Source: Labrys monachus (GTDB lineage Bacteria > Pseudomonadota > Alphaproteobacteria > Rhizobiales > Labraceae). Taken from it: a stretch of DNA of 64,000 nucleotides. Within the stretch, counting starts at the first letter, position 1; each line of letters starts with the position of its first letter. The notes beneath the pieces are model-generated. The model made no database searches and was not told where the DNA came from. It saw only the letters and a program-made list of their open reading frames with translations. A program made the position numbers and the translations under genes. The stretch covers positions 5,401,001-5,465,000 of the forward strand of contig NZ_JAUSVK010000001.1 of the NCBI RefSeq assembly GCF_030814655.1, read 5' to 3'. Below, one piece after another: positions 18,576 through 34,510 of this stretch.

Positions 18576-18660
<85 letters not shown>

Positions 18661-22070: not shown

Positions 22071-22412
22071 TCAGCCGACTTTTTCGAGCCAATCCTTCAA
22101 CACGGCATTCGCCTTGACCTGCCAGCCGTCGCCCAGGGCACGCATGCGATCGATGACGTCGCCGTCCAGGCGCATCGTCACCTGGCGTTTCGGGTTCGGC
22201 ACACGCGGCCGGCCGCGGCGCCGAGCTTCCTGATAGGTGACGAGATTTGCGTCGTCCGGGAGGGGTGGCGCGTCCGGATCGGCGAGCGCCGCGGCGTGCA
22301 GCTTCGCGTCTTCCTCGTCGGTCAGCCCTTCGCCATAGGCCCCTGCCTTTGCGAGGGCCTTCGCCCACTTTTCCTTTTCAGAGACCGAAAGTTTTGCGAA
22401 TGTGGTCTTCAT
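22071..22412 (-). CDS. brnA: BrnA-family antitoxin
   Basis: 113 residues from ATG at 22412. Long acidic N-terminus, then a C-terminal ribbon-helix-helix (RQVTMRLDGDVIDRMRALG, WQVKANAVLKDWLEK) as in BrnA, which binds DNA and neutralises BrnT. It overlaps the 3' end of brnT by 35 bp, the usual toxin-first order. Confidence 0.85.
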   Translation of the reverse strand: MKTTFAKLSVSEKEKWAKALAKAGAYGEGLTDEEDAKLHAAALADPDAPPLPDDANLVTYQEARRRGRPRVPNPKRQVTMRLDGDVIDRMRALGDGWQVKANAVLKDWLEKVG

Positions 22413-22701
22413 AGCGCTTCTTGTCCTTCCTGTCGGCGGCGCGGAGGCTGATCGCATGATCCTCCTCGCCGCGGAGCGTGTAGACGTAGAAGAACAGGCG
22501 AGGGCCGATGAAGCCGATAGCGCGCTCACGCTGTTCGCCATGGGCCTCGCCGCGGTCCTCCGCGATCAGCGCCGTTTCCCACTCGAACCCTTCAGCCGCC
22601 GCAAGCTCGATGCCGTGCTTGACGAGATTGCTGCGGTTCTTGGCGGGATCGAAAGTGGTCAAGATCGGCGCTCTCTGTTCGATAATTATTTGTAGCGCCA
22701 T
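22378..22701 (-). CDS. brnT: BrnT-family ribonuclease toxin
   Basis: 107 residues. Recognised by FDPAKNRSNLVKHGIEL, the FEW segment, ERAIGFIGPRLFFYVYTLRGE and the ISLRAADRKDKKRYE C-terminus typical of BrnT (RelE-like RNase fold). The operon is probably autoregulated by the BrnA-BrnT complex; GGCGT-N11-ACGCC at 22710-22730 just upstream could be the operator. Likely stabilises the element. Confidence 0.88.
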   Translation of the reverse strand: MALQIIIEQRAPILTTFDPAKNRSNLVKHGIELAAAEGFEWETALIAEDRGEAHGEQRERAIGFIGPRLFFYVYTLRGEEDHAISLRAADRKDKKRYEDHIRKTFGL

Positions 22702-22847: not shown

Positions 22848-23708
22848 CTATGGTGTCGTGGGGCCTATCGGATAAGCGATGATCGTCATGAACCAACTTC
22901 CGCCGGGCATCTGGGATTCGAGATCATATTCAATCAATTTCACGATCCATTTGCCATTGGCTGGCGTCAGATCGCTTTTAACCTCGATATCCCCCCCATA
23001 TCTCACGGCCGGATTGTACAGCGCGCGAAGGATGATTTCGGTTTCGTTGAAGGCTGGGTATCCAACTAAGCCCGTCTCTTTGGAGATGAGCGGGGTGCTG
23101 CCCTGCCGCGGCTTGCCGGGCATCGATATGGCGAGTGTGCCCTTGTCGACGATCCACTCGATGCCGGCATGCTCGGCGATCTGCATCGCCTGCATCCAGG
23201 CCGAGCCGTAGTAGTAGGGGTTAGCGAGCTTGACGTTGACGCCGTTGCCCTCGAAGGCCAACCCCATTTGCTTCGCGAGGTTCGACATCATGCCGGCGAC
23301 GTCGGCGCTGCCTTTGATGCTGGTCGGCTTGACGGGCTTGACCTGGTCATAGATATTCGGTTTGGCGGAAATGCGAAAGCAGACCTGCGGCATCGACATC
23401 GCGTCGACGAAGGCGGAGAAGATTTGCCCTTCATAGACGGTGTCCATGCCGGAACTGTCGCCTGCTCGGATCACGACGGTATTCAAAAAGTCCCTGTTGT
23501 ATTGGGTGCCGACATTGCTGAGCTGGTTCATCAAATCGAGCGGCAGGCCAAAGATAGCAGCCGTGGCATCACTCTGATCGGCGCCCCCCTTATTTACGAT
23601 ATGGCAAGAGCACCTTAGCCCCTCTATCGTCGCCGTGTTGCCGCCGCCATGGAACTGGCCATTGGCAAGTTGCAACTGGATGGAGATCCGCTTTTGCGAG
23701 AAGGCCAT
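22848..23708 (-). CDS. Phage baseplate-hub-like tail protein
   Basis: 286 residues. Mixed beta protein without signal or membrane segment. Motifs such as GMDTVYEGQIFSAFVDA, NPYYYGSAWMQAMQIAEHAGI, GTLAISMPG and LVGYPAFNETEIILRALYNP are those of a tail/baseplate hub family (gp27-like) of contractile-tailed phages. Full-length, so recently functional. It is the most downstream member of the leftward packaging/tail block; the adjoining baseplate, sheath and tube genes are missing. Confidence 0.6.
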   Translation of the reverse strand: MAFSQKRISIQLQLANGQFHGGGNTATIEGLRCSCHIVNKGGADQSDATAAIFGLPLDLMNQLSNVGTQYNRDFLNTVVIRAGDSSGMDTVYEGQIFSAFVDAMSMPQVCFRISAKPNIYDQVKPVKPTSIKGSADVAGMMSNLAKQMGLAFEGNGVNVKLANPYYYGSAWMQAMQIAEHAGIEWIVDKGTLAISMPGKPRQGSTPLISKETGLVGYPAFNETEIILRALYNPAVRYGGDIEVKSDLTPANGKWIVKLIEYDLESQMPGGSWFMTIIAYPIGPTTP

Positions 23709-25936: not shown

Positions 25937-27268
25937 TCAGCCGGCGGCTCGCCGCCATGCGGGGGGCATCCGGGACAGTTCGAGGAGTTTGTCGGAAATG
26001 ATCATTGGGCCGTGTCCGCCGAACATGAGTTCGGTGAGTGCCCAGACGAGTGCGTCCATGCGGTTCGGTGAGCCGGGGCCTTGGTATCCGCTCGTATTCG
26101 TGAGGCGCATTTCCTCTTCGAGATCGGCGAGGGGATTATCGAAGCTCCCGATGGGCACGACGTGATGCACCTTGCCCTGTTCGTAGAGAGCGGCCACGGG
26201 TTCGGCCCGGACAGCCTTGCCTCTCGTCGCCGTTATGAGCTTGATCGGCGCGCTCTTGCGGGCGGTCTGGATGACGTGCTGGCACATCTCGCCGCCGTAG
26301 TTCTTCTCGACGACGATCTTGTCGGCCTTGTACTGGTCGAAGGCCGCGATTACGGCCTTGCCCCAACCGTCCGGCGACAGTTTCACGGTGCGGTCGGCCA
26401 GGATGTAGGCTTTTCCATCGTCACCCTTGCCGGCTACCACGATGCCCTGCGCATCTCCCCCGTCTTCACCGTTGGAGCCGCTCGGGTCGACGGCCACCAC
26501 AACCCGAATAAGCTGCGGCGTCTTGTCGACCCGGCAGCGCTCCAGCACTTCGAACGGCCATAGACAGTTCGGCACGTCGTCCAGCAACTCGCCATCGAGT
26601 TCCTGCCGTCCAAGGCGAGTTCCTGCATACCGATCGGTAATGACCTTCATGAAGCCGGCGGCGAGGTTCGCCGCATTGTCCCGCGTCTTGCCCCGCGTGA
26701 TCACGACATCTTCGCCCGCCCGCTTCATCAGTTCGCGAAGCAGACGGTTCGGTTTCGGCGTCGTCGTCACCACGGCCCGAGGCCGGTCTCCCAAACGCAA
26801 GCCGAACTGAAGCATGTCCCAGGCCGCGAGGTATCGCCAGGATCCAACCTCGTCGCACCATGCCGCATCGAACTGCGGCCCGCGGAGCCGTTCCGGCTCG
26901 TCTGCCGAGTAGGTCGTCGCAATGACGCCGTTCGGCCATGTCAGGCGGCGACGGGAAGGCTCGTATTCGGGACGCATGCCCTTCGGAGCGATGGCGAGCA
27001 GCCCGCTTTCGCCTTCGACCATGACGTCGCGGGCATCGGCTGCCGTGGGGGCGACAAGCGCTATGCGGGTCGCGGCGCCCATCAGCACTTGCTCTTGCAC
27101 CCACTCGGCGCCGGTCCTGGTTTTGCCGAACCCGCGGCCGGCGACAAGCGCCCATACGGCCCAATCGCCAGGGGGCGCAATCTGCTCCGGCCGGGCTTTC
27201 ATGCGCCAGGAGTTGCCGAGCACATCGGCCAGCCTGCCGAAGAGCGCGCCATCACGCTGCGTCTGCAT
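25937..27268 (-). CDS. Phage terminase large subunit
   Basis: 443 residues from ATG at 27268. ATPase domain with Walker A AGRGFGKTRTG (about 50-60), Walker B region AAWCDEVGSW, and the coupling TTTPKPN motif; C-terminal RNase-H-like nuclease with VVAVDPSGSNGE, KNYGGEM and SPNRMDALVWALTEL. All catalytic acidic positions are visible, so it should be active in DNA packaging. It overlaps the small-subunit gene by 17 bp. Confidence 0.92.
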   Translation of the reverse strand: MQTQRDGALFGRLADVLGNSWRMKARPEQIAPPGDWAVWALVAGRGFGKTRTGAEWVQEQVLMGAATRIALVAPTAADARDVMVEGESGLLAIAPKGMRPEYEPSRRRLTWPNGVIATTYSADEPERLRGPQFDAAWCDEVGSWRYLAAWDMLQFGLRLGDRPRAVVTTTPKPNRLLRELMKRAGEDVVITRGKTRDNAANLAAGFMKVITDRYAGTRLGRQELDGELLDDVPNCLWPFEVLERCRVDKTPQLIRVVVAVDPSGSNGEDGGDAQGIVVAGKGDDGKAYILADRTVKLSPDGWGKAVIAAFDQYKADKIVVEKNYGGEMCQHVIQTARKSAPIKLITATRGKAVRAEPVAALYEQGKVHHVVPIGSFDNPLADLEEEMRLTNTSGYQGPGSPNRMDALVWALTELMFGGHGPMIISDKLLELSRMPPAWRRAAG

Positions 27269-27896
27269 GATAGGCCTCCGCTGCCGGGAGGGCGATGCCA
27301 TCAATCTGCGGAACGGGAATATCCTGAAGCTTCATCAGGCCTGCCACGACGGCGCGCATGGCTTCCGGATAGGGTGCCAGTTCGCGCATGAGCATGGTTT
27401 CAAGTTGGCCGAAGAGCGGCGACGCCATCAGCGTGACGGCGTTCTGCGTCACGTTGTTGTTGATCGTCGTAATAGAGCGGGCGCTCTCCATCAGTTCGCC
27501 GGTGAGCTTGCCTATCTCGCGCAGCACCTCCGTCGCCCGGCCGGCAAGGTTCGCTGTGGCGTTGCGGTCGTTGCAGGCTGCCGCAGCGAGCATCTGCGAT
27601 ATCAGAGTGCTCCGGATGATGGCGAGATAGTCGAGCAGCCCCACGCCCTCCGCAGCGGCCTTCTCGACGAGATCCTGCATGGGCACGTCTGCGATCAGCA
27701 TGGCGCGCCGGTCCGGCGGCAGATGCTCCATGTGTCGCCACACGGCATCACGGCCAATGCTGTACTTCGCGGCGATGTTATCGAGACTCACGCCGCTGAT
27801 GCGCGCCATCTCGATCAGCACGCGATCCGGATGCGCACAGACGGTGCACCGGGCCTTGTTGGCTGTCAGACGGGGGTGGGGAAGCTTCTTCGGCAT
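27252..27896 (-). CDS. Phage terminase small-subunit-like HTH protein
   Basis: 214 residues from ATG at 27896 (a TTG at 27935 would add 13). An N-terminal zinc-finger-like CTVCAHPDR and HTH (VSLDNIAAKYSIGRDAVWRH) for DNA recognition, then a helical middle and NNNVTQNAVTLMASPLFGQL. Overlap with the large terminase gene and gene order support the small-subunit call. Confidence 0.75.
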   Translation of the reverse strand: MPKKLPHPRLTANKARCTVCAHPDRVLIEMARISGVSLDNIAAKYSIGRDAVWRHMEHLPPDRRAMLIADVPMQDLVEKAAAEGVGLLDYLAIIRSTLISQMLAAAACNDRNATANLAGRATEVLREIGKLTGELMESARSITTINNNVTQNAVTLMASPLFGQLETMLMRELAPYPEAMRAVVAGLMKLQDIPVPQIDGIALPAAEAYHADAA

Positions 27897-27996: not shown

Positions 27997-28680
27997 TCAA
28001 GAGGCTGTCTTAACAGTCTTTCGAAGAAGCAGGTTGCGCACCGTGGTTGCGTGCCAAGCACCGCCCCGGCGAGTGTGAACGCCGCGCGTGTTGAGCACCG
28101 CGGCGATGCCTTCAAAGCTCGTAACGCCCGATGCCTGGATACCCTGGATCATGGGCAGCATCTCGTCTGCAAAGGCGTTTGCATCGGCGCTGAGGCTTGC
28201 TCGGGCGGCTGCTGCCGTCTCTGCGCTACCATGAGTGCCCAGGCGCTTGCCCTGCGCCTTGCGGGCTGCCAGGGCCGCCTTGGTGCGTTCCGAGATCATG
28301 GCGCGCTCTTTCTGTGCCAGGGCGGCATAGAGATGCAGCATGAAGGGATCGGCATCGGCGCCCAGTTCGGCCACGATAAAGGGCGTTTTCTGCGCCATCA
28401 GACCAGCGATAAAGGCGACGTCGCGGGACAGGCGATCCAGCTTCGCGACGATGATGGGGCACTTCGATCGCTTGGCAGCGGCGAGCGCGGCGGCGAGTTG
28501 CGGCCGGCGATCGAGCGCGTCCGTTCCCTTGCCGCTCTCAACCTCCATATGCTCGCCGATGATAGCGATTCCCTCAGCCTCGGCGAAGCGGCGGATTGCG
28601 TCCCGCTGCGCCTCGATGCCGAGCCCACTCTTGCCCTGCCGGCCCGTGGAAACGCGGAGATATGCGACGGCGATGTTCAT
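27997..28680 (-). CDS. Serine recombinase, resolvase/invertase family
   Basis: 227 residues from ATG at 28680. Catalytic Ser in [16 protein letters not shown], the KLDRLSRD motif and [19 protein letters not shown] show an intact resolvase domain; a short C-terminal recombinase HTH region ([20 protein letters not shown]) follows. Small resolvases act on short sites for cointegrate resolution or inversion. It has its own promoter. Its target in this element is not known. Confidence 0.88.
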
Positions 28681-28708
28681 GCGGATGCCCTTCAACCTGA
28701 CATCTGCA

Positions 28709-28737
28709 AATCTAGTACGTCGGTTCGTATTTTGCAA
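28709..28737 (-). promoter_or_regulatory. Promoter of the serine recombinase gene
   Basis: Minus strand: -35 TTGCAA (28737-28732), 17-bp spacer, -10 TAGATT (28714-28709), 29 bp before the start codon. Confidence 0.6.
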
Positions 28738-28918
28738 GTGCTTGTTTTCACTCATGTTCGCGACGCCTGTTCAGCCGCCATCGCTTGCGTGTTTTCGATG
28801 CGACGTCTTTTCTCAATCCCTACCGGACATGCAGCCCGGTTCCTGCCGACATCCTGGCATCGGCCCCGCCGACTTCATGGTCTTCTGCACGCCGTTTCGC
28901 TCCATCGTTCCACCCTCT

Positions 28919-29103
28919 GTTCGCACCTTCCCCTTTCCAAGGGGGGGGAAGGGTGCGAACGCGAAACAGAATGGGCATTTGTTCGCATCTCTGTTCGCAT
29001 GCGAACGCAAATGTTTTCAATGACTTACCGCCGTCTCGTTCGCACCTGTCGTTCGCTGCGAACGGTGCGAACAAAAAGGGCGGTTTGTTCGCAGGGTGCG
29101 AAC
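28919..29103. repeat. Cluster of ten GTTCGCA heptamers: candidate iterons/origin
   Basis: GTTCGCA or its complement begins at 28919, 28954, 28981, 28993, 29000, 29038, 29057, 29066, 29087 and 29097, with a one-base variant at 29051. They form palindromes: GTTCGCATGCGAAC (28993-29006), GTTCGC-T-GCGAAC (29051-29063) and GTTCGCA-GGG-TGCGAAC (29087-29103). The first two lie in the arms of a hairpin with a CCTTCCCC/GGGGAAGGG stem. Immediately downstream (3 bp) of the RecA-like ATPase gene. Best read as replication-initiator or repressor sites. Confidence 0.75.
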
Positions 29104-29106
29104 GCC

Positions 29107-30228
29107 TCATTTTGCCTCTACCAAGGCGCCTTTTCCCTTGGCGGTAATGGTCCATTTTCCCAAGGTGGACTCGACGAGCTTCTGCCTTTGCAGCGTTTGG
29201 AGCTTTCGGTTGACGATGGATTTCGTCCGGCCGATCGCGGCGCCCCACGCGGCTTGTGTCCCGGCTGGCTCGGCAAGCATGGCCTTCAGCAAAGCGATAC
29301 TGATGTCGATCTCGGCGGCCTGTCTCTCTTCGGCGAACTCTTCGGCACTGGGGCGCATGGTGGGTAGCTGCACCTGCCGGCCCTTGGCGTCGAGCACGTC
29401 GGGGCTGCCGGTAATTTCGAAGCGAAAGAAGGCAGGCTTGAACTCGAGACCGCGGAGCTTTCCTTGCCAATGCAGGGTGACAAGACCGCTTTCGGGCTGT
29501 TTGGCGAGGCAGAGATTGCCGTCGACTTCGTTGAGGATGGCGCCACCACCATAGGGGACAAGATTGTCTTCGGCGGCGTTTTTGACAGGGTGAGCGGCGA
29601 CGACAACGGACGGGAGGCCATCGATGCGAGTGAGGGGACGCACGCGGCGCATGAACTCGCCCCCCTGCACGTTGTCGTTGATATTGTCGCCGTCGAAAAA
29701 GGCCGCGAGCGTGTCGACCAAGACAAGCGAGAACGGCCGCTGTTTCGCCATGGCGTTGAGCTTCGTGACAACCTCTTCCGGCTTCACGCGCATATCGAGG
29801 ATGACGAGATCGTCGCTCAACTCGTCGATATCGATATTCAACAGAAAGGCGGCGACTTTGAACCGCATCCTGGCGTCGTCGGGGTTCTCGAATGCGAGGT
29901 AGGCGACGCGACCCCGGTTGACATCGAGGCCGAGAATGTCCGGTCGCCCGGTCGCGATTGCCAGGGCAGCGACGACAAGGAACGCAGTCTTGCCCGCCCC
30001 GGTCTTGGCTGTGAGCGTGTATAGCGAGGATGAGCGCACGATCGGCTCTATCGCATAGGAGAGCGGCGTATACTCCGCGCAGAACGCTGCCGCCGATTTG
30101 AATTCGACGGCAGGCTTTGCCGAGACGGGTTTCTGCCCGGGCGCCGGCGATGGGGGCTGTTCCTCGCGCCACATCCCATTATCCGGCATGGCGCGTGGTC
30201 TGCCCATTTTGCTGCTTCTCTCGTTCAC
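29107..30228 (-). CDS. RecA-like/AAA_25 ATPase, RepA-type
   Basis: 373 residues from the GTG at 30228, which overlaps the previous stop (GTGA) and has GGGAG upstream; an ATG at 30207 is the alternative. Walker A TLTAKTGAGKTAFLV (about 80-95), Walker B SLVLVDTLAAFFDG, and sensor-like VVVAAHPVKNA. The C-terminus contains a winged-helix-like region (GRTKSIVNRKLQTLQRQKLV). Such hexameric RepA-type ATPases act as replicative helicases in plasmids and phages. Last gene of the seven-gene operon, next to the heptamer array. Confidence 0.82.
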   Translation of the reverse strand: MNERSSKMGRPRAMPDNGMWREEQPPSPAPGQKPVSAKPAVEFKSAAAFCAEYTPLSYAIEPIVRSSSLYTLTAKTGAGKTAFLVVAALAIATGRPDILGLDVNRGRVAYLAFENPDDARMRFKVAAFLLNIDIDELSDDLVILDMRVKPEEVVTKLNAMAKQRPFSLVLVDTLAAFFDGDNINDNVQGGEFMRRVRPLTRIDGLPSVVVAAHPVKNAAEDNLVPYGGGAILNEVDGNLCLAKQPESGLVTLHWQGKLRGLEFKPAFFRFEITGSPDVLDAKGRQVQLPTMRPSAEEFAEERQAAEIDISIALLKAMLAEPAGTQAAWGAAIGRTKSIVNRKLQTLQRQKLVESTLGKWTITAKGKGALVEAK

Positions 30229-30773
30229 GCAGCCGCTCCCGCCTTGGCCTGCCAAGTGATTCGCGGGCTCGGCGTAGTGAGCATGCAGCGCAGTTCGGCG
30301 GCGTGGACCGCGTCTTCGGCCTGCATGGCGATGCCGGCAAGCTTGCCGCGGGCTTTCCTGGCATCGACGACGACAATCCCCCGGCGGTCGTTGCGGAGCC
30401 ACCACAGCGGATCACGATAGACGGGTAACGGTGCACCAAGCCGCGGTCGCAGAATTTCGTCTTCGCCGGGCCCGACCACGGCACCGAGCCAAAGAGCCAG
30501 CCGGTCCGTGCGTGGATTCCAGGCCGTGATGTCGGCGGCGACGCCCGATGTGTCGTAGCACAGGAAAAGGAGGGCTCTGGCGCCCTCCTCCTCATTGGTC
30601 ACGATGTCGAAAGTCCCGGCCCTGTCGAATGCGACACGGGCCGTAAGGACGGGGTCCGGTTCGATCAATGCTTGCGTCGCGACTCCGCGAACGCGGAGCC
30701 AGTTGAGTTGACGCTGATCGAGGCGGTCGGACTGGTAGAACAATTCCACGAGTTCGGAATGGGAGACGATCAC
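30225..30773 (-). CDS. Phage/plasmid protein of unknown function
   Basis: 182 residues. Contains ARVAFDRAGTFDIV, GARALLFLCYDTSGVAADIT and PLPVYRDPLWWLRNDRRGIV; the C-terminus is helical (KLAGIAMQAEDAVHAAELRC). The LLFLCYD-GVAADITAWN pattern recalls conserved hypotheticals beside primases/helicases in alphaproteobacterial prophages and could be a Toprim-like fold, but key acidic residues are not clear. Overlaps both neighbours by 4 bp. Confidence 0.65.
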   Translation of the reverse strand: MIVSHSELVELFYQSDRLDQRQLNWLRVRGVATQALIEPDPVLTARVAFDRAGTFDIVTNEEEGARALLFLCYDTSGVAADITAWNPRTDRLALWLGAVVGPGEDEILRPRLGAPLPVYRDPLWWLRNDRRGIVVVDARKARGKLAGIAMQAEDAVHAAELRCMLTTPSPRITWQAKAGAAA

Positions 30774-31132
30774 AAAGGCCCCCTCGTCCCCCGAGGAGAC
30801 CCGGCTTTTTTCCCATTCTCAGCTGCGGCGCCGATCGCGAGCGCCAAGCGCAGCGGAACGATAACGAGGGGCTCGCGCCGATCCGCCTTGACGACGAGCA
30901 TGTCGCGCCCCTCCAGCCAGCGATAAAGCTCGCGGAAGCCATCAGCGCGTGCCTTGGCCTCGACGGTGCGGTCGACGCCGAGAAGCGGCACGGTGATGTC
31001 GCCGATATACGATCCACCGGCCGAACCAGAGAGCGGGACACGCTCCGCGGCAAAGCCGGCTTCCTGGAGTTGCCGGACGAGGGCGCGTTCGACACGATTG
31101 CCCTTGTCGCGAGATGCGCGGCCGCCGCTCAT
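30770..31132 (-). CDS. PD-(D/E)XK nuclease, Holliday-junction-resolvase-like
   Basis: 120 residues. N-terminal KGNRVERALVRQLQEAGFAAE, then SGSAGGSYIGDITVP with the catalytic Asp and VEAKAR with Glu-x-Lys: the E...GD...ExK arrangement of archaeal-type/RecU-like junction resolvases. Probably resolves replication or recombination intermediates of the element. Overlaps neighbours by 4 bp on each side. Confidence 0.75.
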   Translation of the reverse strand: MSGGRASRDKGNRVERALVRQLQEAGFAAERVPLSGSAGGSYIGDITVPLLGVDRTVEAKARADGFRELYRWLEGRDMLVVKADRREPLVIVPLRLALAIGAAAENGKKAGSPRGTRGPL

Positions 31133-31455
31133 AGCGGAGCCCTCACGCCCAAGAAGCGGGTGGCGAGATAGCGGACGGCCTCCTCGTAAGCCTGCTCGCC
31201 TTGCTCCATCGTCCAGCGGATGACGTCGCCCTGCTTCAGCGTCACCGTGCAGATATAGAACCGGTGCTCATCCGAGATGAAAAGGCTGTCCTGCCCGGAA
31301 AAGGGGGAAGCGCCGCGCCATTCATGACCCTGCTGGCGCAACTGCACCGCCCGGCTGATCACGTCCGAGGGCTTGACGGTTTCGACGATCTTCCGGGCCA
31401 GGAACTTCACATGGCTTTCGGCGTCGGCCGGCTCGTCGTGGAACTTGTCAGGCAT
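31129..31455 (-). CDS. DnaG CHC2-like protein lacking zinc ligands
   Basis: 108 residues from ATG at 31455 (116 with the upstream start). The segment VISRAVQLRQQGHEWRGASPF followed by LFISDEHRFYICTV mirrors the CHC2 finger of DnaG (KLRKxGxxYxGxCPFH...SFxVxPxKxxYxCFGC), but the first Cys is Ser and the last pair is largely lost, leaving one Cys. It may keep the fold without zinc. Position between PC4-like and nuclease genes fits a priming or ssDNA role. Confidence 0.6.
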   Translation of the reverse strand: MPDKFHDEPADAESHVKFLARKIVETVKPSDVISRAVQLRQQGHEWRGASPFSGQDSLFISDEHRFYICTVTLKQGDVIRWTMEQGEQAYEEAVRYLATRFLGVRAPL

Positions 31456-31693
31456 TGATGAGGCCCTCCGCGACGGCAAGCGCCTCAGCCTGGCGCAGCC
31501 CCTCGATCACCTTGCCGAGAAGCTCAGGCTTGATCGTGATGCCGGTCTTCGTTGCGATCTGCTCATGGTCACCATTCTCGGTGAACAAGCGCAGGTCGAT
31601 GAAATCGGCACCTTTGAAGTGCCGCATCATGATGCAGATGAAATCGCGACTGTTCTTCTGGACGCGGGCGACGACGCGATCGGGACTATCCAT
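31448..31693 (-). CDS. PC4/p15-like ssDNA-binding protein
   Basis: 81 residues. RVVARVQKNSRDFICIMMRHF, DFIDLRLFTENGD and TKTGITIKPELLGKVIEGL match the strand-strand-strand-helix of the PC4 transcriptional coactivator family, with the KxGITI turn. Bacterial/phage members bind single-stranded DNA as dimers. Overlaps both neighbouring genes by 8 bp. Confidence 0.7.
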   Translation of the reverse strand: MDSPDRVVARVQKNSRDFICIMMRHFKGADFIDLRLFTENGDHEQIATKTGITIKPELLGKVIEGLRQAEALAVAEGLINA

Positions 31694-31895
31694 GGAATGC
31701 CCCTCCCGCGTTGACCATCAGGTGAACCATGATGATGCTGATGGGGATCGAGCAACGCGCCGCAATCTTGCGCGCTGCGGCATCGATCCGGTTGATTTCG
31801 GAGTGGTGGGCTGGTACTGAAGAGTTGCTGAACTTTTCGACTACCAGCCCGGCGGAGGCGGCAACCTCGCGCCGGGTTTCGTTTGTGGTGTGCAT
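31686..31895 (-). CDS. Small unknown protein in replication operon
   Basis: 69 residues from ATG at 31895, 1 bp after the HTH gene stop; the longer frame to 32102 is a shadow of that HTH gene. Helical, with AARKIAARCSIPISIIMVHLMVNAGG as a moderately hydrophobic end (written as one family-like segment of mixed character). No domain recognised. Confidence 0.5.
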   Translation of the reverse strand: MHTTNETRREVAASAGLVVEKFSNSSVPAHHSEINRIDAAARKIAARCSIPISIIMVHLMVNAGGAFHG

Positions 31896-31896
31896 G

Positions 31897-32127
31897 CTAC
31901 GCCGCCTCCGCTTTCGCGGCTTCGGCGGGGACCGCCCTAGCCAGTTCCCATCGGCGCAAGGTGGCAAGGCGCCAAAACCGGCGACCATTGACCTGCATAT
32001 CAGGCGCGGGAAATCCCAGTTCGGAATTCGAGAGCCACCGATCGATACTACGAACATGACGATGATAACGCTTGGCGACCTGACCGGTCGGCAAGAGCAC
32101 ATCGTCGTCAGATGCTTGGAAACTCAT
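31897..32127 (-). CDS. AlpA/HTH_17-like DNA-binding protein
   Basis: 76 residues. LPTGQVAKRYHRHVRSIDRW and FPAPDMQVNGRRFWRLATLR form the winged HTH of AlpA-type regulators. AAGGAG 6 bp upstream. First gene of the seven-gene operon, so likely its regulator; AlpA-like proteins also control integrase or excision in P4-type satellites. Confidence 0.75.
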   Translation of the reverse strand: MSFQASDDDVLLPTGQVAKRYHRHVRSIDRWLSNSELGFPAPDMQVNGRRFWRLATLRRWELARAVPAEAAKAEAA

Positions 32128-32249: not shown

Positions 32250-32963
32250 TTAGTCCCGGCCCTCGCCTCGCGGCCGGATACTGCCTCGAATCCATCCTCT
32301 TACGGTGTCTACCTCGACGCTGGTTTCACAGCATATCGAAACAATAGTCGCGAGTTGTCCCATATAGGATGAGCCATAGATAGCTCTGGTGAATCTATTA
32401 AGGGAGAGAACTTTAACCCGTATCCCATCCTCAGCTTGAGATTTTCCGCTTCTATCAATGTAATAAGGGTTAGAATACTGATGCTCCTCGACTTCAGTTG
32501 CCAAATTATCGAAATATTCACTTACCATGACCAGGGCATCTCTCAGTTTTTCGTTGCTTAGGCCGCCCATAGGATCGTTGGCTGCCCAAGTGCATTGAAG
32601 AGCGGCCTCTCGCCATTGCCCTGTAGATTTCCGAATGAGATTTCCCATCACCGGTTGATTGTTGATCTGCGTTTCGAGCGATGCGGCCAAGAAAATGGAT
32701 CCACAGGCAATTTCCGCGAGGTCACAGTCATGCGTTTCCACCTCCAGCATTGCCGGGCGATAGAGATCGTCCAGCGCATCCAGGCGCGTCTGAAAGGCCC
32801 TTGCATCCTCTCGCACCTGGAGGTCGCCTTGTCCCTTCAGATAGCTCCAGACTTTTGTCATTTTTGGATGTTCAATGAGACGCTGAGCTGTCTTGTTTGC
32901 CTGAAGTTGTTGGGTTTCCGCGAGTTGCTTTAAAAGCTGCGGAGCGCCGAGCCTATTGAGCAT
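32250..32963 (-). CDS. Unknown protein coupled to the integrase gene
   Basis: 237 residues; its start overlaps the integrase stop by 11 bp. Mostly helical, soluble, with KMTKVWSYLKGQGDLQVRED near residue 34 and SLNRFTRAIYGSSYMGQLAT near 190. Base composition is noticeably more AT-rich than the neighbours, which suggests separately acquired cargo. I recognise no family. Position next to the integrase is where many elements keep defence or fitness cargo, but nothing in the sequence shows such a function. Confidence 0.65.
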   Translation of the reverse strand: MLNRLGAPQLLKQLAETQQLQANKTAQRLIEHPKMTKVWSYLKGQGDLQVREDARAFQTRLDALDDLYRPAMLEVETHDCDLAEIACGSIFLAASLETQINNQPVMGNLIRKSTGQWREAALQCTWAANDPMGGLSNEKLRDALVMVSEYFDNLATEVEEHQYSNPYYIDRSGKSQAEDGIRVKVLSLNRFTRAIYGSSYMGQLATIVSICCETSVEVDTVRGWIRGSIRPRGEGRD

Positions 32964-34278
32964 GATGCGCCACCCTTATCGGCACCACATTGGCCGTCGG
33001 CGTGTCGGCCACCAGTTGCGCAACGAACCGCCCCCAGGTCTCTAGCGCCGCCCGCTTCTCATCCGAAAACGAATGCCGCTGATAAACCCCTACGATTCCC
33101 CCGAACGAACCGGAGACGTGGTTGAGGATTTTTTCGATCACAGGGAGGTTTATGCCCAGTCGAGCCATGCCGGATGCCATCGTCCTGCGAAGGTCGTGGA
33201 AGGTCCAGCGCTCCGGCTCGCCGATCTTGTCAGCATTTCCCCCGGCATCGGCCGCGGACCTGCGGAGCGCCTCCAGGATGGATTTGTCCAGCGAGCGCTT
33301 CGCCTTCGCGTAGCCGGAGACGGGCGTCTCCCCCGTGGTCGTGAAGACGTAAACGGCGCCTTTCTTGCCTGAGATTTTCGGCAGCTTCCGTAAGATCTCT
33401 ACGGCCGGCGCTGACAGTGGCACCTCGTGAGCAACGCCGTTCTTGGCTCGCTCTTTCGGAATGGTCCACAGCGCCTTGTCCAAGTCGACCTCGGACCATT
33501 GCATTCCCGCGACTTCCTCGCGGCGCTGACCGGTCAAGAGCAGCAACTGCGCAAGAGGTCCGAAGGGCCAGCCCTGCCCCTCCGCGGCGTTCCAGACAAG
33601 GCGGAGTTCGATATCGGACAGCACGCGGTCACGGCTGGTTTCGCCGGTGGGCGCCTTGAGCCCCGCGCAAGGCGAGATCTGCAAAATGCCGCGCTCCACG
33701 CACCAGTTGAAAAGCTTACGAACCACGGCCAGGACGCGGTTGGCCTGAACCGGTGCGCCACGATCAACGATCCCATCGAGCAGATCGATGACGTCACGCT
33801 TCGCAATGTCCTGGACGCTGCGCTTCTTCCAAAGCGGCACAACCTCCCGATTGAGGATCCGCTCATATTCACGCCAACTCGATTCCCGCGTATTCGGCTT
33901 CGCGTATCGGTCGATGAATGACGAAGCGATCTTCTCGACGGTGTCCCTTTCCGCCCGCCCTGCTTCCTCGGCAGCCTTCCGGGTCTCTTTCTTCTCCGAC
34001 GCTGGATCGACGCCATCCGCCACCTGGGCGCGCAGGCGCTCGGCCTTCTTTCTCGCCTCGGCGAGGCCAAGCCCGTCGCCCAGGTAGGGACCGATCGTGA
34101 ACTTCGCCGGCTTGCCGTTGATTCTATAGCGGAATGCCCAGCTGAGGCGCCGCTCGCCATCGGGCCGGGCGGGCTGAACGACCAGATAGAGCCCCCTCAC
34201 CTTTCCGTCCGGTATCTCGCGACGAGCGGGGCCTGGACGAAGATTGTCGATAGCCACCTGCGTGAGGTTGTTACCCAT
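32953..34278 (-). CDS. int: P4-type tyrosine integrase
   Basis: 441 residues from ATG at 34278; the in-frame extension to 34362 reads through the GTTACCC arm sites. N-terminal DUF4102 arm-binding domain (1-90), SAM-like core-binding domain (about 110-200), catalytic domain with Arg in LTGQRREEVAGMQW, His-x-x-Arg in FHDLRRTMASGMARLG and the nucleophile Tyr in IVGVYQRHSF. All catalytic residues are present, so the element could still move. It reads toward the element interior, 178 bp from attR. Confidence 0.95.
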   Translation of the reverse strand: MGNNLTQVAIDNLRPGPARREIPDGKVRGLYLVVQPARPDGERRLSWAFRYRINGKPAKFTIGPYLGDGLGLAEARKKAERLRAQVADGVDPASEKKETRKAAEEAGRAERDTVEKIASSFIDRYAKPNTRESSWREYERILNREVVPLWKKRSVQDIAKRDVIDLLDGIVDRGAPVQANRVLAVVRKLFNWCVERGILQISPCAGLKAPTGETSRDRVLSDIELRLVWNAAEGQGWPFGPLAQLLLLTGQRREEVAGMQWSEVDLDKALWTIPKERAKNGVAHEVPLSAPAVEILRKLPKISGKKGAVYVFTTTGETPVSGYAKAKRSLDKSILEALRRSAADAGGNADKIGEPERWTFHDLRRTMASGMARLGINLPVIEKILNHVSGSFGGIVGVYQRHSFSDEKRAALETWGRFVAQLVADTPTANVVPIRVAHHAQ

Positions 34279-34348
34279 GGCTCGGACCGTCCGTTGACAT
34301 ACGGGTAACACGAGGGTAACGGAATATCCGTGTCTTCTGGTGTTACCC
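34270..34348. promoter_or_regulatory. Candidate right arm-type integrase sites
   Basis: Four heptamers: GTTACCC at 34270-34276 and 34342-34348, GGGTAAC at 34303-34309 and 34314-34320. They overlap the int start and its promoter region, so integrase could repress its own gene. Same heptamer as at the left end. Confidence 0.55.
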
Positions 34349-34455
34349 AATGTCGACGACATTAGCAGACATCACCCGACATAACAATGAGATATATAGG
34401 GTTTTTGTGCTCAGGATGTCCTGTTGTGTCTGTGTGTGTCGCCTCCAAATCGGCA

Positions 34456-34510
34456 ACTCTTAATCAGCGGGTCCCAGGTTCGAGCCCTGGTGCGCCCACC
34501 ATCGGAAAGC
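34456..34510. repeat. attR, right copy of 55-bp direct repeat
   Basis: Identical to 18606-18660. It contains only the 3' part of tRNA-Lys, so it is the displaced half of the original gene and not a functional tRNA. Confidence 0.95.

Follow-up and report, generated by a model that had tools for sequence, protein, structure and literature searches.

A heptamer array behind a RepA/DnaB-type ATPase gene as the putative replication origin of a tRNA-Lys-integrated phage-like element in Labrys monachus

Replication origins that are built of short iterons and lie just behind the gene of a helicase-initiator are already known from phage-inducible chromosomal islands (PICIs), Staphylococcus aureus pathogenicity islands (SaPIs) and phage P4. 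SaPI Rep, which has been compared with MCM-like and D5-like helicases, uses its C-terminal domain to recognize the iterons behind its gene (PMC7581432), and two iteron sets flank an AT-rich region in Escherichia coli PICIs (PMC6092414). The helicases SCCmec Cch2 (PMC7581432) and pRN1 replication protein (PMC4234260) bind through the C-terminal domain to an origin that follows the gene encoding them. Iteron recognition in plasmid RSF1010 is the task of RepC, a protein distinct from the helicase (PMC4234260). Here we describe an array of the heptamer GTTCGCA next to an ATPase gene of Labrys monachus (Alphaproteobacteria, Rhizobiales), located in a stretch of 64,000 nucleotides (contig NZ_JAUSVK010000001.1, positions 5,401,001 to 5,465,000; hereafter the window, whose first base is position 1). 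According to our analysis, the array (28919-29103) is most likely the replication origin, an iteron cluster, of a small phage-like element integrated at tRNA-Lys, with the C-terminal winged helix of the adjacent ATPase as its putative reader. Like the rep-ori regions of PICIs and SaPIs, this origin would lie directly 3' of the initiator gene and consist of short iterons. What is different here is the helicase class, the fusion of the reader to the helicase, and the variety of words.

The original prediction had described ten exact copies of GTTCGCA, in both orientations, within 185 bp, where about 0.02 would be expected with equal base use. Our recount found the same ten copies in 28919-29103, and the expectation agrees with simple arithmetic. 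An eleventh copy with one mismatch lies at 29051-29057. Across both strands of the window the heptamer occurs 15 times against 11.7 expected from shuffles, and 10 of these 15 fall inside the array. No other 7-mer in the 64 kb clusters as densely as these 10 copies within 200 bp. The runner-up word (6 copies) belongs to the array as well, being an overlapping register of it, and words from outside the array reach at most 5. When a 500-bp segment spanning the ATPase stop was dinucleotide-shuffled 100 times, no 7-mer exceeded 3 copies. Because T or C precedes all ten exact copies, the repeat unit is better written YGTTCGCA. The three palindromes of the original prediction are present as well, namely a perfect one of 14 bp formed by two abutting heptamers (28993-29006), one that joins an exact copy to the imperfect one (29051-29063), and one in which 3 bp separate two heptamers (29087-29103). 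The last is closest to the ATPase stop codon (29107-29109), and three bases separate array and stop, as had been claimed. Elsewhere in the 6.92-Mb genome the heptamer is nowhere equally dense; outside the array, pairs within 30 bp occur at only three places (one direct, one convergent, one divergent).

The ATPase gene (29107-30207, minus strand) encodes 366 amino acids from an in-frame ATG at 30207, within a longer open reading frame (ORF) extending to 30405. Its product matches Pfam AAA_25 with 68.9-69.1 bits (curated cut-off 27), and all 70 aligned relatives match this family at E <= 0.01. A structure search with the AlphaFold2 model (mean predicted local distance difference test score, pLDDT, of 90.8) returned the replicative-helicase fold, RSF1010 RepA included, with only the helicase domain (model residues 45-292) in the matched part. 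The protein models as a DnaB/RSF1010-RepA-type replicative helicase, in line with the helicase-type ATPase of the original prediction. We propose that the heptamer is read by the winged-helix region at its C-terminus (residues 289-354; 29146-29343, minus strand), which is modelled with helices at 289-312, 318-325 and 329-341 and strands at 345-348 and 351-354; the helix at 329-341 (29185-29223, minus strand) is the predicted recognition helix. Pfam winged-helix matches of the window ATPase are below threshold, and among the 70 relatives such families were matched as HVO_A0261_N (22/70), HTH_24 (10/70) and MarR_2 (8/70).

Single-sequence searches yielded few close relatives of the ATPase, which were found in 1 of 5 genomes of the same family and 4 of 397 of the same order (own genome included in both), and among 385 genomes of the same class only in its own; a plasmid search gave no match. 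A single annotated phage record, MW202475, matches the window ATPase (30.5% identity). For its relatives, annotated-phage matches at low identity numbered 61 for L013, 7 for L012 and none for L011 (L-numbers are labels of the compared loci; L083 is phage P4). All of the closest relatives with sequence past the ATPase stop have an array there. A Methylocystis locus (L007) carries 7 copies of the same heptamer GTTCGCA, L008 has 8 copies of GTTCACC (= GGTGAAC; array near 2741-2940), and L009 has 7 copies of GTTTAC-type sites, while other words are found in the more distant L011/L014, L012 and L013 (only 4 copies in L013). The suggestion that the same heptamer would recur beside homologous ATPases is therefore borne out as to place; the identical word is rarely found there, and a different one takes its stead.

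An alignment of eight ATPases led us to 67 phage-contig loci. In the positional test the commonest 7-mer on both strands was counted in a 250-bp segment within -100 to +400 of the ATPase stop, at least 5 exact copies being taken as an array. Left out were L006 and L038, which have no stop, and L010, L016 and L018, which duplicate the window, L008 and L009; the sequences of L005, L006 and L038 stop short of the array region. An array was present at the ATPase stop in 57/72 loci (79%; window included) versus 19/963 control tiles of 500 bp taken from other parts of these loci (about 2%). Part of the 19 positive tiles are displaced arrays (those of L037, L048, L069 and L075 lie in such tiles), and the array of L052 is found at +876. 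A second set of 37 loci on new contigs, obtained from three scans with clade alignments, gave 23/37 versus 6/299 tiles, so that in both sets most relatives that keep the ATPase keep the array. Phage P4, used as a positive control, showed 5 copies just past the alpha gene, within its annotated cis-required region. In 7 of the ten phage contigs that were also used for GC skew, the array is the top 7-mer cluster. Short repeat clusters do occur at roughly 2% of control tiles, as would suit a neutral expansion or a generic genome repeat, but the recurrence at the same place in 79% of the relatives and the absence of another GTTCGCA cluster from the genome leave this explanation with next to no probability. 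Two side observations concern individual loci. The ATPase frame of L068 (4001-5075) is broken by a shift, and 5 copies of its word still lie downstream. Dense 7-mer clusters of 7-11 copies are also found away from the ATPase array, at about +3.5 kb (L044), -2.6 kb (L055), +2.5 kb (L076) and +1.1 kb (L059-L061) relative to the ATPase stop.

Iteron proteins often autoregulate, and an array with several palindromic sites between two genes would fit an operator through which the ATPase or another protein of the element represses the replication operon or the genes after it. The array is, however, located at the 3' end of the ATPase gene and not at the start of the operon. It also keeps this place in relatives despite differing neighbours (none of the nine other tested proteins of the window recurs in more than 7/56 loci, window included), and in some relatives (e.g., L012, L034) it runs into the end of the ATPase coding sequence. 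We therefore regard an operator as unlikely. Of the two functions originally offered for the array, an iteron origin or a multi-site repressor region, the first is favoured by the arrays of distant relatives, by the helicase fold and by a word that changes together with the winged helix, and the second appears less likely.

The word varies strongly between loci. Among 56 non-redundant loci with at least 5 copies we counted 34 different heptamers, and 42 among 73 when the second set was included. Once aligned, 29 of the 34 words carry GT at the same two positions, preceded by C or T in 28 of these 29, and the bases that follow vary; there is little conservation outside the heptamer in the site consensus. 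A separate case is L115, where 11 copies of the A-rich AAAAATC run from -2 bp of the ATPase stop onward and depart from the YGT theme.

For the covariation tests, loci with fewer than 5 copies, near-duplicates and L032 (GC-rich word) were left out; alignment A2 did not include the partial L078 or L068, whose gene is frameshifted, and the enlarged column scan did not include L098 and L101 (stop inside). With the ATPase core accounted for, word distance was correlated with the distance between the C-terminal parts of the ATPases (partial r 0.173; 0/2000 permutations). A column scan for residual association with the word, in which no region was preset, yielded 13 of 312 columns with z >= 3, 9 of them in the C-terminal part (68 columns), and in the enlarged set of 73 loci 9/12 such columns were located there. 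When words were shuffled only within clusters of similar cores, the C-terminal part (68/308 columns) held 10/13 columns with z >= 3 (Fisher 2.5e-5), and the remaining three correspond to residues 38, 89 and 293. The strongest word-tracking residues, in window numbering, are 306, 318, 319, 327, 329, 330, 333, 336 and 337, and word-tracking positions concentrate from residue 298 on. Five of the 13 columns from the restricted shuffling (329, 330, 333, 336 and 337) are within the recognition helix 329-341. These columns had been identified before the structure model existed; AlphaFold2 then placed the winged helix there, with its helix 318-325 and recognition helix, and the word-tracking positions are therefore those expected to touch DNA. 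Judged from these sequence comparisons, the heptamer differs by lineage and is apparently matched to the DNA-reading domain of the ATPase.

Two further explanations are suggested by the genes on the far side of the array. The next gene on the side away from the ATPase encodes a serine recombinase (27997-28755), and resolvases bind inverted sites, so the array might be a recombination or accessory site of this enzyme; a relative of the recombinase is, however, present in only 5/56 array-bearing loci (window included), which makes this highly improbable. Some 1.6 kb beyond the array lies the gene of a terminase large subunit (25937-27304), which would suit a packaging (pac) site, and many partition sites consist of palindromic repeats. 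Against a packaging or partition role of the array, the word tracks the recognition helix of the ATPase, and terminase relatives were found in the flanks of only 3/56 loci, a count that divergent terminases would escape. This reading seems very unlikely to us, if slightly less so than a recombinase site.

In 54/56 loci the sites flank the AT-richest 30-mer of the array on both sides, and in 34/56 this 30-mer is unusually AT-rich for its locus. The corresponding stretch of the window (29007-29037), a candidate unwinding region, also has sites on both sides and is the most AT-rich part of the array, its best 30-mer reaching 63% AT against 38% for the locus; as such a region it is weak in this copy. 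At the end distal to the ATPase, the array of the window contains a long inverted repeat (28919-28960, minus strand), each arm of which holds an iteron; we propose it as an origin stem-loop. The predicted DNA fold of 28915-28965 has -16.3 kcal/mol (z -4.5), and none of 200 shuffles was equally stable. Across the relatives, searching for the best inverted repeat without a preset pattern gave mainly iteron pairs and no clear excess over shuffles. A guided hairpin pattern (perfect stem of at least 6 with TTAG, CTAG, CTAA or TTAA at the centre) was found at the array end in 22/50 loci versus 13/700 tiles and 19/1000 shuffles, although this pattern was picked after many of those arrays had been viewed. 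It does not occur in the array of the window, whose inverted repeat lacks the TTAG/CTAG/TTAA centre present in a minority of relatives.

The array is contained in an element of 15.9 kb between two copies of a 55-bp direct repeat, one being the attachment-site copy at the 3' part of tRNA-Lys (18606-18660, plus strand) and the other marking the opposite end (34456-34510, plus strand). The element encodes a tyrosine integrase (32953-34362, minus strand; Pfam Phage_integrase, E 5e-22), a CHC2 zinc-ribbon primase-like protein (31129-31479, minus strand; Pfam Zn_ribbon_DnaG, E 2e-12) in which the catalytic primase domain was not matched, and a Holliday-junction-resolvase-like nuclease (30770-31132, minus strand; Pfam PDDEXK_15 / Hjc, PHROG 244). 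On the other side of the array, in addition to the serine recombinase and the terminase, lie a baseplate-hub-like protein of the E217 gp41 family (22848-23708, minus strand) and ORFs resembling the BrnA antitoxin (22071-22541, minus strand) and the BrnT toxin (22378-22701, minus strand). A PC4-like protein had also been named; its presumed candidate, an ORF of 138 amino acids (31686-32102), has no Pfam match at E 0.1, and this assignment was not confirmed. The element looks like a small tRNA-Lys-integrated prophage-like element, either a reduced prophage or a satellite. What was originally taken for an undescribed element is a small prophage-like element, possibly defective. Integrase and attachment repeats are shared with PICIs, but the element also has a terminase large subunit and a baseplate hub, and a reduced prophage fits too. 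Since capsid and tail genes are present on the contigs of some relatives (e.g., L008, from its ORFs), the arrangement of array and ATPase is not confined to satellites.

SaPI-type Rep helicases belong to another helicase class, and the initiator described here differs from them in its predicted helicase domain, which by model is of the RepA/DnaB type (RecA fold). The same applies to the P4 alpha protein, likewise of a helicase class other than the RepA/DnaB type. P4 is similar in that the alpha gene is immediately followed by crr, a region required in cis that is made of 8-bp type 1 repeats, the commonest of which, TGTTCACC, contains the L008 heptamer GTTCACC (L083, 4291-4590 and 9310-9413). 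Homology to P4 alpha was considered and rejected (HMMER with the A2 profile, E 0.11, -2.4 bits; hhalign probability 0.1 for the C-terminal parts). As the proteins are not detectably related, convergence or chance is suggested for the shared word. P4 also differs in having a second origin region elsewhere, and none was found in the window. In contrast to RSF1010, the putative reader here is a winged helix fused to the helicase; the RepC and RepB' families were not matched among the window proteins in general scans, none of which was aimed at RepC/RepB'. SCCmec Cch2 and the pRN1 protein belong to other helicase families, and the pRN1 origin is a stem-loop without iterons.

Several observations speak against an iteron origin read by the ATPase. 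In 15/72 and 14/37 loci no array of at least 5 copies is found at the tested place, the loci in both counts (72 and 37) are not de-replicated, and the positional test found no array in MW202475, the only annotated phage that matches the window ATPase. There is also a weak correlation between the word and the ATPase core (partial r 0.077, p 0.048), and the column tests take columns as independent. Extremes of GC skew near the array in the ten phage contigs gave no support (combined p 0.15), with distances to the array of 140 bp in L043 and 832 bp in L019 and far larger ones in L037 and L056. In the window itself, a 30-mer just as AT-rich occurs in 20% of stretches of that length in the rest of the locus, so that the stretch in the array is not unusual; a primase catalytic domain was not found among the element proteins scanned, nor a head gene among the 19 ORFs scanned in the element. 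Because of these last three points, the window copy of the element may be defective. Judged by its position, multiplicity, conservation and reader, the array is still best seen as an iteron origin where the ATPase would assemble via its winged helix and open the DNA with its helicase ring, a primase being fused to it or present nearby.

We infer binding, self-loading, opening, priming, origin activity and continued function of the window copy along the following lines, in which the steps after binding rest on analogy with SaPI Rep, PICI origins, P4 and RSF1010. Several ATPase molecules would bind the YGTTCGCA sites, as pairs on the palindromes, and their RepA/DnaB-type helicase domains would assemble on the array. 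The DNA might then open in the AT-richer stretch between the two site groups, where the helicase could load itself. Finally, a primase, which is fused to the ATPase in many relatives and apparently a separate protein in the window element, would prime, perhaps at the stem-loop at the end of the array.

Beyond this locus, we give about even chances to a broader proposal, that the arrays mark a widespread and as yet unnamed class of phage replicons. In these, a replicative helicase of the RepA/DnaB type would contain the winged helix that reads the origin and would load itself onto the neighbouring iteron array. The word would be under diversifying selection (42 words in 73 loci, with a fixed YGT) and give every lineage a replication address of its own, comparable to plasmid incompatibility or replicon immunity, and the natural pairs would represent a readable winged-helix recognition code. 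We found no description of such arrays in openly licensed PMC papers, which is weak evidence of absence. The proposal raises the question of what causes the fast change of the word between related phages, and the 42 natural word-protein pairs offer a set for working out how winged helices read the roughly four variable bases after the fixed YGT. If the origin reading is true, a RecA-fold replicative helicase itself carries out the origin recognition that RSF1010 leaves to the separate RepC, and the heptamer array behind the ATPase gene would suffice to find origin and reader by sequence alone in many prophages and phage contigs that are still uncharacterised.
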